Assembly (NCBI RefSeq): GCF_000520975.1
Contig: NZ_JACB01000051.1
Span: 1-64,000 of the forward strand
DNA: 64,000 bases
Direction of reading: 5' to 3'
DNA from: Aquimarina megaterium XH134
GTDB taxonomy: Bacteria; Bacteroidota; Bacteroidia; Flavobacteriales; Flavobacteriaceae
The notes below the pieces were generated by a model. It saw only the letters and a program-made list of their open reading frames with translations. It was not told the origin of the DNA and searched no databases. Numbering within the stretch: position 1 is the first letter of the stretch; every line of letters begins with the position of its first letter. Positions 3,596 to 6,318 of the stretch are shown piece after piece. A program made the position numbers and the translations under genes.

Positions 3596-3630
3596 AAAAA
3601 GGTTCATCTACATAAGATGAACCTTTTGAT
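3596..3630. terminator. Bidirectional terminator
   Basis: A 12-bp perfect inverted repeat (3597-3608 and 3616-3627) has A and T runs at its outer ends. It sits between the convergent nucleotidyltransferase and small-peptide genes and can serve both strands. Confidence 0.85.
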
Positions 3631-3651: not shown

Positions 3652-3867
3652 TTAAACTTCTACAGCACATAATCCAACACGGCCTCCAACACAGGATAAA
3701 CCAGGTCCACAGGATAAATGTGGTAATGATGATCCTTGCAGGCATAATTCGCCTACTTGTTTATCGCCGTCACCTGCAAGCTGAAGTGCAGTAGCAGCTC
3801 CTCCGTTTATTAACTTTTGTTCTTCTCTGCTAAGTGTGTTGCTTAAAGCTAAGATATTTTTTAACAT
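3652..3867 (-). CDS. Double-glycine leader peptide, RiPP/bacteriocin-like precursor
   Basis: The 71-residue peptide begins with a leader of the type common in Bacteroidetes bacteriocin-like precursors. MLKNILALSNTLS is followed by EEQKLINGG, with the Gly-Gly at residues 22-23. Cleavage there would leave a 48-residue core rich in Gly with four cysteines at about residues 42, 53, 59 and 67. No peptidase-containing ABC transporter or modification enzyme is nearby, so processing would have to be supplied elsewhere. The gene is divergent from the TPR/AraC regulator, and two copies of a repeated element lie between them. The product class and activity are not known. Confidence 0.7.
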   Translation of the reverse strand: MLKNILALSNTLSREEQKLINGGAATALQLAGDGDKQVGELCLQGSSLPHLSCGPGLSCVGGRVGLCAVEV

Positions 3868-4051
3868 AATATAAAGTTTGGTTTATTAACGCCATAATTT
3901 TTTTTGAGTCGTTCATGGCTTTACGACTTATTCTTAGAACAAAAACAGTATAAAGTTAACTGTGCATCGTTATTTGTTTATTTTTTGATTGAGTTTGATT
4001 GAAACAAATATATAGACAGAGCTAGTAGTTTTTCAAGGTGCTCTGGTTAGC

Positions 4052-4068
4052 ATTTATAAATTTTACCT
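4052..4068 (+). promoter_or_regulatory. Repeated element copy 1 (candidate regulator site)
   Basis: The sequence ATTTATAAATTTTACCT is the first of three related copies. It lacks one base before ACCT relative to the other two. Its start is 22 bp from that of copy 2, about two helical turns, so both could be bound on one face of the DNA. Confidence 0.55.
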
Positions 4069-4073
4069 TATCG

Positions 4074-4091
4074 ATTTATAAATTTTAACCT
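4074..4091 (+). promoter_or_regulatory. Repeated element copy 2 (candidate regulator site)
   Basis: The sequence ATTTATAAATTTTAACCT differs from copy 3 at 5954-5971 by one base. It contains the palindrome ATTTATAAAT. It lies 93 bp before the start of the TPR/AraC regulator and about 205 bp before the divergent peptide gene. Confidence 0.55.
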
Positions 4092-4184
4092 ACGTTTTTA
4101 TACTTAGGTTCTTTTTTTGTAATTGCCAGGATAACTACTTTTTTGAAGTTTTTTATTCTTTGTAAGTTTGTTTATTAAACATAC

Positions 4185-5915
4185 ATGCCCTTTTTAATCT
4201 ACTTATATATGAAATGGATCGGTTTATTGGTAATATTAATATCTTATATCCCTTCATTACACACAACATCACCATTACAAACTGAACAGAAAATTGTTGA
4301 TGCAGATTCATTAAAGAATAAAACATTAAGAGAATTAACAATTGAGTTTTGGAAAGGGAAAGACCTCGATTCTGTTTATAAACGAAAACTTGCAGATACT
4401 TATATTTTTAAAGCGAAAAAACAGATTAATAATGAGAGGGTAGCAGATGGATATCAAATGTTTCTTTCTATCTACAAAAAACAACCTGAAATATCATTAC
4501 AGTATGCAGATTCTATAATTGAAATAACAAAAAAGTTACGAAATAACCATTATCCTTCTACAGGATATATGATAAAGGGAAATATATTAAGTACCATAGA
4601 ACAGCACGATGAAGCATTAGAAGCATATTTAATTGCTAAAGAATATGCAGAAAAGAATAACAATAAACGACAATTGATTGGTTTAAAACATAATATTGCA
4701 TTGTTAAAAACCATCCTGGGAAAAGAGAAAGAAGCACTATTGGTGTATAAAGAGAATTATAATTATTTAATGAAACAGGAGAATAGTGTTTTAAGACGCA
4801 GTCAGATTTATATAGCTACGTTGTATAAATTGTCTGATAGTTATAATCGACTTAAGCACTATGATTCGGCATACTTTTATCTTAAAAAAGGAATAAAAGC
4901 TAGCCTGTCTAATGCTTATAAGCATCATTACCCGAATCTTTTATTTGCTTACGGAATCAATAGTTATTATAGAGAAGAATACCAATCGGCTATCGATAGT
5001 TTAGATAAAGCATTAATTTTATCTGAAGAAGATGTCAATGATGTAAATGTAAGAAAAGGATATCTGTATTTGGGGAAAACCTATTTGCAACTAAAAGAAG
5101 AGCGAAAAGCATTACAATATTTAAAGAAAGTAGATGAAATTACTAATGAGTCAAATTATAGATTAGAAATAAGAGAAGCGTTTACATTATTGCTTGATCA
5201 CTATAAAAAGAATAAAGATCAAAGGAATCAGTTAGAAATAATGAAAAAACTGTTACGGTATGAAAACGCCTCTAGTATAAAATATAGCCGATTAAATCAT
5301 TCTATTGTAAAAAAGTACGATATACCACAGTTGATAAAAGATAAAGATCACTTGATAAGTGAAATTAGAAATAACAATAAAGTTTTAACTTATAAGTCAA
5401 TAGCGTTTAGTGTCTTTTTGATCATAATTGTAAGTTCTTTATATATCTATTTTTCTAAGAAAAGAAAAAATAATTATAAAATTCAATTAAATAGAGAGTT
5501 AGAGAAGGTTAAAGTTTTAGAGAATAAAGAGAGGAAGATTGTGAAGTCAAGTAAGGATTTTTCAACTAAATTGAAAAAAGAAATACTTGAGAAGTTGAAC
5601 GATTTTGAAGATAATAAAGGATATTTAAAAAATGATCTTACTTTAAATAAGGTTTCGAAAAACTTAAAAACAAATTCTACCTATTTATCTAAGGTGATCA
5701 ACATGGAGAAGCAAAAAAACTTCGCAAATTATATTAATGATTTAAGAATTGAATATTGCATACAACAGATAGAACAAAATAAAAATTTTAAACACTACTC
5801 GATCAGATCAATGGCAAAAGAAGTTGGTTTTAATAATCTACAATCTTTTGTCACAGCTTTTTCTAAACAAAAAGGATGTAATCCCGCAGAGTTTATGAAA
5901 AAGTATGGAAATTAG
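4185..5915 (+). CDS. Membrane TPR protein with C-terminal AraC-type DNA-binding domain
   Basis: The 576-residue protein has an N-terminal hydrophobic signal/anchor, an extended TPR-like helical region (about residues 90-340), one transmembrane helix at about 404-424 and a basic linker. An AraC-type helix-turn-helix domain follows at about 470-576 (SIRSMAKEVGFNNLQSF, then KKGxxPAEF-like QKGCNPAEF). This TPR-TM-AraC layout is common in flavobacteria and suggests a one-piece membrane regulator that senses something outside or at the membrane and binds DNA inside. A second ATG at 4209 is an alternative start. It sits between two peptide-precursor genes and has repeat elements on both sides, so they are its likely targets. 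Confidence 0.75.
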   Translation: MPFLIYLYMKWIGLLVILISYIPSLHTTSPLQTEQKIVDADSLKNKTLRELTIEFWKGKDLDSVYKRKLADTYIFKAKKQINNERVADGYQMFLSIYKKQPEISLQYADSIIEITKKLRNNHYPSTGYMIKGNILSTIEQHDEALEAYLIAKEYAEKNNNKRQLIGLKHNIALLKTILGKEKEALLVYKENYNYLMKQENSVLRRSQIYIATLYKLSDSYNRLKHYDSAYFYLKKGIKASLSNAYKHHYPNLLFAYGINSYYREEYQSAIDSLDKALILSEEDVNDVNVRKGYLYLGKTYLQLKEERKALQYLKKVDEITNESNYRLEIREAFTLLLDHYKKNKDQRNQLEIMKKLLRYENASSIKYSRLNHSIVKKYDIPQLIKDKDHLISEIRNNNKVLTYKSIAFSVFLIIIVSSLYIYFSKKRKNNYKIQLNRELEKVKVLENKERKIVKSSKDFSTKLKKEILEKLNDFEDNKGYLKNDLTLNKVSKNLKTNSTYLSKVINMEKQKNFANYINDLRIEYCIQQIEQNKNFKHYSIRSMAKEVGFNNLQSFVTAFSKQKGCNPAEFMKKYGN

Positions 5916-5953
5916 TTTAGGGAGGCTTGTATTTGTAATGAAATAAGGTAAAG

Positions 5954-5971
5954 ATTTATAAATTTTGACCT
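5954..5971 (+). promoter_or_regulatory. Repeated element copy 3 (candidate regulator site)
   Basis: The sequence ATTTATAAATTTTGACCT matches copy 2 with one change. It lies 41 bp before a TACTTTTG -7 element (6012-6019) and 75 bp before the start of the second peptide gene. That is a usual position for an activator, and no good TTG -33 box is present there. Confidence 0.6.
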
Positions 5972-6011
5972 GTAATGATTTTTAATAGACACTACAAGAT
6001 TGTTTCTTCAT

Positions 6012-6019
6012 TACTTTTG
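6012..6019 (+). promoter_or_regulatory. Bacteroidetes -7 box before peptide 2
   Basis: TACTTTTG fits the TAnnTTTG consensus and lies 27 bp before the peptide start codon. No TTG occurs at the usual distance upstream. Confidence 0.45.
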
Positions 6020-6045
6020 ATGCATCCATTAATACAAGAGAAACC

Positions 6046-6231
6046 ATGAAAAGAAAGAACAAAATTAAAATCAATCTTCAAAAAATTAAAATAACAAAAT
6101 TAGATAACCCGATGAAATATAATGTGAGAGGTGGTGGTTTTCAAGATACCTATGATTCCATAATTAATCTTTGTAATAGTAATGGTTGTGATTCTAATCC
6201 TCCTTGTAATATTGAGAAGACAGATAGTTAG
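6046..6231 (+). CDS. Small lanthipeptide-like precursor with Gly-Gly leader
   Basis: The 61-residue peptide has a Lys/Asn/Ile-rich leader (KIKINLQKIKITKL) ending in RGGG at residues 28-31. Such leaders are typical of Bacteroidetes class I lanthipeptide-type precursors. The core of about 30 residues has three cysteines (43, 48, 54) and several Ser/Thr (T35, S38, S45, S50, T59, S61) that could be dehydrated. No LanB, LanC or transporter gene lies within the window. It is preceded by a repeat element shared with the regulator promoter region and followed by a strong terminator. Assignment rests on leader pattern and composition only. Confidence 0.65.
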   Translation: MKRKNKIKINLQKIKITKLDNPMKYNVRGGGFQDTYDSIINLCNSNGCDSNPPCNIEKTDS

Positions 6232-6280: not shown

Positions 6281-6318
6281 AAAAGCCCAGTTCGTAATTT
6301 TACAAACTGGGCTTTTTT
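6281..6318. terminator. Bidirectional terminator
   Basis: A 12-bp perfect stem (6281-6292 with 6305-6316, GC-rich centre) is followed by a T run. It lies between convergent peptide 2 and the acyl-CoA dehydrogenase gene. Confidence 0.9.

Follow-up and report, generated by a model that had tools for sequence, protein, structure and literature searches.

The window analysed here, a 64,000-nucleotide stretch of Aquimarina megaterium XH134 (on contig C50 of a 6.2-Mb genome), carries a compact module in which a TPR/AraC regulator stands between two small peptides with double-glycine (GG) leaders, and the regulator very probably controls both of them. Three copies of one DNA element, a doublet between peptide 1 and the regulator and a single site ahead of peptide 2, are the putative operators (Table 1). 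The module appears to be one instance of a recurring unit made up of receptor, peptide and operator. A sequence-only reading of the locus had proposed that the regulator binds these sites and controls both peptides and itself. Its core idea is probably right, and larger than the locus alone could reveal: recurrence of the pair, fixed operator-to-promoter spacings and a composite DNA pattern that leads back to the regulator family all favour control of both peptides through putative direct binding, while the self-control it included is not supported. Computation shows the architecture, its recurrence, the promoter geometry, a joint loss of parts in relatives, the predicted topology and a weak covariation between peptide cores and the TPR part.

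Between two terminator-like hairpins the order is peptide 1 (minus strand), regulator (plus strand) and peptide 2 (plus strand). The hairpin scan found two such structures where 0.7 were expected, in agreement with the proposal that terminators bound the module on both sides; a sigma-70-type promoter scan was uninformative here (15 found, 17.2 expected). Among the open reading frames (ORFs) between the hairpins, to which this statement is limited, the TPR/AraC protein is the sole regulator. The module was also said to be without local processing genes, and indeed models for the C39 peptidase, LanC and the LanB C-terminal part found no match on the window's contig.

Table 1 Features of the module, with coordinates in the window
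Feature	Coordinates	Strand	Basis
Terminator-like hairpin, left boundary	3597..3627	+	hairpin scan
Peptide 1, 71 aa, leader MLKNILALSNTLSREEQKLINGG, core with 4 Cys	3652..3867	-	ORF
-7 box TATATTTG of peptide 1 promoter, start 48 bp from proximal operator core start	4005..4012	-	-7 box search
-33 TTG of peptide 1 promoter	4034..4036	-	-33 check
Operator copy 1 of doublet, core TTTATAAA at 4053-4060	4052..4069	.	element search
Operator copy 2 of doublet, core at 4075-4082	4074..4091	.	element search
Possible -7 box of the regulator itself, TAAGTTTG	4163..4170	+	read from sequence
TPR/AraC regulator, 576 aa	4185..5915	+	ORF, Pfam, model, hydropathy
Single operator, 26-bp imperfect palindrome AGGTAAAGATTTATAAATTTTGACCT, core at 5955-5962	5946..5971	.	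element search and promoter-anchored test
-7 box TACTTTTG of peptide 2 promoter, 57 bp from operator core start	6012..6019	+	-7 box search
Peptide 2, 61 aa, leader (I/L)xLxKx5L plus GG, core GFQDTYDSIINLCNSNGCDSNPPCNIEKTDS	6046..6231	+	ORF, leader motif
Terminator-like hairpin, right boundary	6281..6316	-	hairpin scan

Putative operator sites and the promoters beside them

All three proposed copies of the element were recovered, the exact 18-mer at 4074-4091 (ATTTATAAATTTTAACCT) and 5954-5971 (ATTTATAAATTTTGACCT) and a one-base-shorter form at 4052-4068. The two copies of the doublet are 22 bp apart, and 74 bp separate the end of the third site from the peptide 2 ATG. The site at 5954 is part of an imperfect inverted repeat, AGGT..TTTATAAA..ACCT; the doublet copies are less symmetric. 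With up to three mismatches the window holds eight matches (1.58 expected; none of 100 dinucleotide shuffles reached eight), made up of the three named copies, two reverse-strand readings of the same places and three matches elsewhere with three mismatches each. When the whole genome was searched, the exact 18-mer proved restricted to the window; forms with up to two mismatches are not rare by count (17 places versus 11 for the reversed control), and a plain element count was rejected on this ground as proof of function.

Position, rather than number, sets the element apart. A GG-type small ORF lies within 700 bp downstream at nine of the 17 places and at none of the 11 controls, and at 5 of 13 places when the window's own four are set aside. 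The element is not tied to this locus alone: forms of it also precede other GG peptides and a paralogous regulator. The 22-bp doublet with at most one mismatch occurs at three places in the genome, namely in the window, upstream of the nearest paralog (contig C1) and, on C10, ahead of another GG peptide. At C1 the order of doublet, regulator, single site and peptide is that of the window, and the proximal copies on C10 and C62 stand 47-48 bp before a relaxed -7 box, as at the window doublet. A separate observation on C62 (L063) is a tandem repeat of five GG-like peptide ORFs (4360-5937), two units of which follow a copy of the element that has a TTG 24 bp and a relaxed -7 box 47 bp from it.

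The -7 boxes follow the flavobacterial consensus TAnnTTTG as given in PMC9723704. Among 25 loci with a doublet, strict boxes facing away from the regulator lie 48 bp (18 loci), 47 bp (one) or 59 bp (one) from the proximal core, with no further strict box in the range of 12-150 bp, which places 19 of the 25 at 47-48 bp. A -33 TTG is present in 21 of 22 divergent promoters with a relaxed box at 47-48 bp. Upstream of the peptides, a TTYNNRAA core stands 56-58 bp before a strict box in 26 of 45 cases and 47-48 bp before it in 6 of 46, the two spacings differing by about one helical turn. A -33 TTG was found in just 2 of 49 peptide-side promoter candidates, and the promoter of peptide 2 itself has a -7 box and no -33 TTG. 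These figures point to promoters of two kinds, those that have a -33 element of their own and those that would depend on an activator. The counts are not independent, because many of the loci are close relatives; after similar sequences were collapsed, 11 of 13 strict boxes following TTTATAAR sites still lay at 47-48 or 56-58 bp. Overall, a fixed operator-to-promoter geometry is found in about half of the loci.

The same geometry was searched for as a DNA pattern. The composite TTTATAAAT-N14..16-TTG-N20..22-TAnnTTTG gave 69 matches in 36 of 66 genomes, versus one for the reversed pattern. Thirty of the 69 were examined as loci, and in 26 of these the regulator profile finds a match (E <= 1e-10) no more than 1.5 kb away, 22 divergent and four on the same strand, with two (L287, L294) short or distant; we estimate that chance would give about 1% (some 14 genes in 6.2 Mb). 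This is a test of specificity and not of discovery, because the pattern was learned from loci adjoining regulators. Other first ORFs at composite promoters, named from sequence, encode a leucine-rich repeat (LRR) protein, assigned by resemblance search, lipoprotein-like, LytTR-like and AraC-like proteins, and a family of 83-101 aa. The last (ALH...MYNLVHH.PYE..LY.W-like) is the first ORF past the divergent promoter in L268, L273, L278 and L292, and likewise in L082, L084, L107, L108 and L126. A family of about 201 aa holds that place in eight loci (L270, L274, L281, L285, L289-L291, L293); the L281 member, the one read by eye, looks like a LytTR regulator, which hints at a cascade.

Operator type also follows the regulator. 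Regulators of the window's clade go with a TTTNNAAA-like core and those of another clade with TTCNNGAA, and on a tree of 58 regulators the class changes three times, against a shuffled mean of 15.6; with so few changes this is support and not proof. The classes differ at regulator residues among which are 499 and 551-554, where the two recognition helices of the model begin.

Natural deletions point to the gene that the doublet serves. In L068, L069 and L070, whose regulators are 88-92% identical, the BLAST alignments with the window are interrupted from 3608/3635 to 4304/4306: there is no counterpart of peptide 1 and the doublet, and the regulator, the single site and peptide 2 are kept (by eye, the last part of the gap can still be recognised from about 4150 onwards). 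L071 lacks peptide 1, and its doublet, judged by eye, has decayed. In other relatives the doublet is retained and a different GG peptide fills the slot, at 185 bp from the core (L072, L073) or at 522-528 bp (L066, L067, L074). From the joint loss, together with retention of the doublet beside other GG peptides, it follows that the doublet belongs to the divergent gene. The proposal that the regulator controls itself is not supported, since the doublet stands 48 bp before a -33/-7 promoter that reads into peptide 1, away from the regulator, and three relatives lose doublet and peptide 1 together while retaining the regulator. There was no -7 box at a constant distance facing the regulator, and autoregulation via the doublet was rejected as its main role. 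Relatives that lack the doublet have a TATGTTTG box, seen by eye, at the position matching the regulator's possible -7 box.

The peptide 1 gene is a bacteriocin-like slot whose content differs between strains; peptide 1 itself weakly matches cyan_ocin_like, below the cut-off. In a large protein set relatives were few, four for peptide 2 and three for peptide 1. Separately, a near-identical stretch, TTAACTGTTTGTTTCCGGAATTTATAAG with small variations, lies 328-586 bp upstream of the regulator start in L066, L067, L073, L074, L078 and L079, and recurs close to a peptide MYLKNFSKYRIDKK...AGG.

The regulator and its peptide across the genus

The regulator was described as a membrane TPR/AraC protein, and its domain predictions agree with this. 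A hydrophobic N-terminus (residues 1-19) is followed by TPR repeats (about 40-367), a predicted transmembrane segment (406-424) and an AraC-type helix-turn-helix (461-574). HTH_18 scores 39.5 bits against a Pfam cut-off of 33.6, and TPR_12 and TPR_2 also exceed theirs. A transmembrane-like segment is present in 98 of 100 regulators, and in 90 of these 98 the charge pattern places the TPR part outside the cytoplasm, as a hydropathy prediction only. In a fold search the TPR part resembled RapI, NprR and RapH; the matches listed concern the TPR part only, and the absence of other families excludes nothing. The protein is best read as a transmembrane one-component receptor with a predicted periplasmic TPR domain, one transmembrane helix and a cytoplasmic AraC domain.

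In the host genome 14 matches span three quarters or more of the regulator's length; the closest of them, with 51% identity, lies on C1. A leader peptide lies directly downstream in 9 of the 14 loci, and a wider rule adds a tenth, L032. At E <= 1e-60 regulators were found in 49 of 66 genus genomes, with up to 12 per genome where at most 20 candidates were scored in each. For comparison we assembled 100 distinct regulators, 13 from the own genome and the rest best-ranked among the matches listed: 103 loci gave 105 matches, of which three shorter than 480 aa and two lacking a usable start (L117, L122) were removed, leaving 100 regulators in 99 loci. A leader peptide, defined by a start within 500 bp downstream on the same strand, follows 82 of these 100 regulators (80 under an alternative downstream-peptide rule) and 1 of 16 other AraC genes of the own genome. 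An LxLxKx5L-like motif precedes the GG in 81 of the 82 leaders; that of peptide 2 reads INLQKIKITKL ... GG, with I replacing the first L. Leaders are alike and cores highly variable, 21 of 81 having a single Cys. Compared across relatives, as the sequence-only reading had advised, regulator, peptide and sites recur jointly across the genus.

For most of these pairs the exporter would have to be encoded at another locus, because in 80 loci of named genomes LanB lies within about 3 kb in 10, C39 or HlyD homologs in six and neither in 64, by homology to own-genome proteins only and with contig ends truncating some of the loci. Of the 57 genus genomes examined for C39 domains, 51 have them. There are four C39 matches in the own genome, one of them weak (E 4e-5) and none on C50, and two stand in clusters with TPR/AraC regulators: one on C69 with HlyD, a C39 exporter, three tandem peptides and a regulator, and one on C6 with a split LanB, HlyD, a C39 exporter and two regulators (HlyD and the LanB N-terminal part were named by reading). 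Lant_dehydr_C, the sole LanB model searched, matches on C6 only, and LanC on C4 and C62; none of these is on C50. The C69 cluster (L161, C69:1-12000) also has two Gly-rich GG peptides, and two of its three tandem leader peptides are identical; several further GG-type small ORFs lie in the C6 cluster (L162, C6:200000-219000).

A proposed circuit and its competitors

In the circuit we propose, peptide 2, whose GG leader is of a type that C39 exporters cleave, would be processed and exported by machinery encoded elsewhere in the genome, and its mature core would be the likely ligand of the periplasmic TPR domain. The AraC domain of the ligand-bound receptor would then occupy AGGT..TTTATAAA..ACCT-like palindromes and activate two promoters. 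One is that of peptide 2 (-7 box, no -33), which would create a positive feedback loop. The other is the divergent one behind the doublet, which would yield the output, here the bacteriocin-like peptide 1 and elsewhere a LytTR-like regulator, an LRR protein, lipoproteins or further peptides. We infer from sequence patterns that the regulator binds DNA and activates transcription instead of repressing it, and that the peptide is exported and sensed; in our judgement the explanation as a whole stands at about even.

The ligand question was approached through covariation in 81 rows (L106, without a leader motif, was dropped). Core similarity correlates with TPR identity given AraC identity (rank correlation 0.178, reached by none of 500 permutations) and hardly with AraC identity given TPR identity (0.040; 45/500). 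Leader similarity follows AraC (0.129; 0/500) more closely than TPR identity. For pairs that share less than 60, 50 and 40% TPR identity, core and TPR part correlate at 0.140, 0.124 and 0.079, calculated without permutations. This pattern is what pairing between core and TPR domain would give, although the effect is small and the rows are related; we regard peptide 2 as the ligand with roughly balanced confidence.

Several further results weigh against the proposed circuit. Forty-five of 100 loci have no relaxed -7 box preceded by an operator at 47, 48, 57 or 58 bp; the C31 site, upstream of four GG peptides, misfits the 47-48 bp geometry, and the C10 site has no -33 TTG. Residues separating the operator classes also include 539, 490, 542, 529 and 514, outside the starts of the recognition helices. 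A GG peptide within 500 bp is the output at just 3 of 30 composite-promoter loci. Eighteen of the 100 regulators have no leader peptide by the rule used, and it is missing at 15 of 25 regulators from records not named Aquimarina (20 of 22 such loci were analysed, L194 and L234 being left out, and some of the metagenome-assembled genomes may belong to Aquimarina); six of the 10 that have it come from Kordia. In a generic test, a motif shared by the upstream regions of regulator and peptide exceeded the 99% level of cross pairs in just 19 of 100 loci for direct repeats and in 13 of 100 for inverted repeats, the promoter-anchored test being the sharper one. The core-TPR correlation is weak and falls to the 0.079 given above for pairs under 40% TPR identity; the rows are related by descent, and leaders too are slightly linked to the TPR part (0.091; 26/500). 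TPR folds are generic, and LGN outscores Rap and NprR in the fold search. Finally, some of these peptides are natural-product precursors, given that LanB (10/80) or C39/HlyD (6/80) lies nearby.

This last point bears on an alternative in which both peptides are under the regulator's control through the three sites, but the cue it detects is some other periplasmic one, the peptides being products, antimicrobial or other, and not signals. The operator and promoter evidence is equally compatible with it, LanB or exporters stand beside some relatives, and the leader is of a known lanthipeptide-precursor type. Set against this, core similarity tracks the TPR part to a degree that the AraC part does not account for, and a leader peptide adjoins the regulator in 82 of 100 loci whereas the divergent output gene varies; we consider the alternative less likely than not. 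A second alternative, which we think unlikely, takes peptide 2 as a class I lanthipeptide precursor that the C6 LanB and one of the two LanC proteins (C4, C62) would mature in trans, with the TPR/AraC protein as an ordinary biosynthesis regulator. Peptide 2 does resemble such precursors: its leader fits the Bacteroidetes LxLxKx5L plus GG motif described in PMC7268733, its core has three Cys and several Ser/Thr, LanB and LanC are encoded in the genome, and NF038153 matches 12 of 27 peptides scanned (E up to 0.01), peptide 2 among them. It differs in scoring 17.1 bits, under the NF038153 cut-off of 22, and in its setting on a contig with no match to LanC or the LanB C-terminal model; moreover, 14 of 81 cores of the same leader family cannot hold lanthionine because they are Cys-free.

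That a different DNA-binding protein occupies the palindromes, with the TPR/AraC genes as mere neighbours, we consider very improbable. Binding by the regulator is itself a deduction, four of the 30 composite loci have no regulator-family match and four more have it on the same strand and not divergent; but sites found from the DNA pattern bring up the family in 26 of the 30, and operator class tracks the regulator tree. If the proposed circuit holds more widely, Bacteroidota would have a class of transmembrane peptide receptors in which each TPR/AraC protein reads an adjacent exported peptide and switches on that peptide and a divergent effector via its own operator type, with up to about a dozen parallel, partly insulated channels per genome, a membrane-spanning counterpart of RRNPP systems. 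We put this generalisation a little short of an even prospect.

Relation to known systems

Peptide quorum sensing is known mainly from Gram-positive bacteria. In Blp/Pln-type Gram-positive circuits a GG pheromone and a GG bacteriocin output are combined with paired repeats and with a histidine kinase and response regulator. The module shares with these a candidate GG-leader signal, a separate GG-leader bacteriocin-like output and paired operators about two helical turns apart, and departs from them in its apparently one-component regulator, which would take the place of the kinase and response regulator pair, and in its palindromic sites. It is like AraC/XylS proteins (HTH_18) in its DNA-binding domain, which scores over the cut-off, and in a long palindromic site upstream of a promoter, and unlike them in the fusion to a predicted transmembrane helix and TPR superhelix. 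RRNPP systems are described as a TPR receptor with a small propeptide gene next door (PMC10075063). The Gram-positive members Rap, NprR, PlcR and Rgg share with the module the TPR receptor and the adjacent small peptide gene (peptide 2, and in 82/100 relatives). In contrast to their intracellular receptors, the one described here is predicted to be transmembrane with the TPR part outside the cytoplasm, so that no re-import of the peptide would be needed; its output domain is AraC-type, its peptide has a GG leader and its host belongs to the Bacteroidota.

In the open-licence literature, at the level of titles and abstract openings and with most subscription papers outside it, we found no description of TPR/AraC regulators paired with GG peptides. 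The nearest remark, in PMC10352776, concerns TPR-domain genes in two Bacteroidales clusters for ribosomally synthesized and post-translationally modified peptides, and points to pheromone binding by TPR domains in other bacteria. In this candidate family every part, from receptor and putative ligand to operator and promoter, is identified from sequence and occurs many times in a genome, which makes pair specificity and its evolution directly testable. The operator-to-promoter rule provides a search pattern for regulator targets, and some flavobacterial GG-leader peptides that lack local maturation genes and are filed as lanthipeptides may be signals.

Two further groups of peptides were seen along the way. 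Leader peptides with acidic (D-rich) cores occur in L114, L129, L130, L143, L147 and L150, with a TW pair in five of the six, and L216, L204 and L222, which overlap L129, L130 and L143, adjoin C39/HlyD homologs. On C4 (L159, 14480-17992), eight closely similar precursor-like peptides (KKxDSLSLKFxKQxIxxL...) surround a LanC gene.

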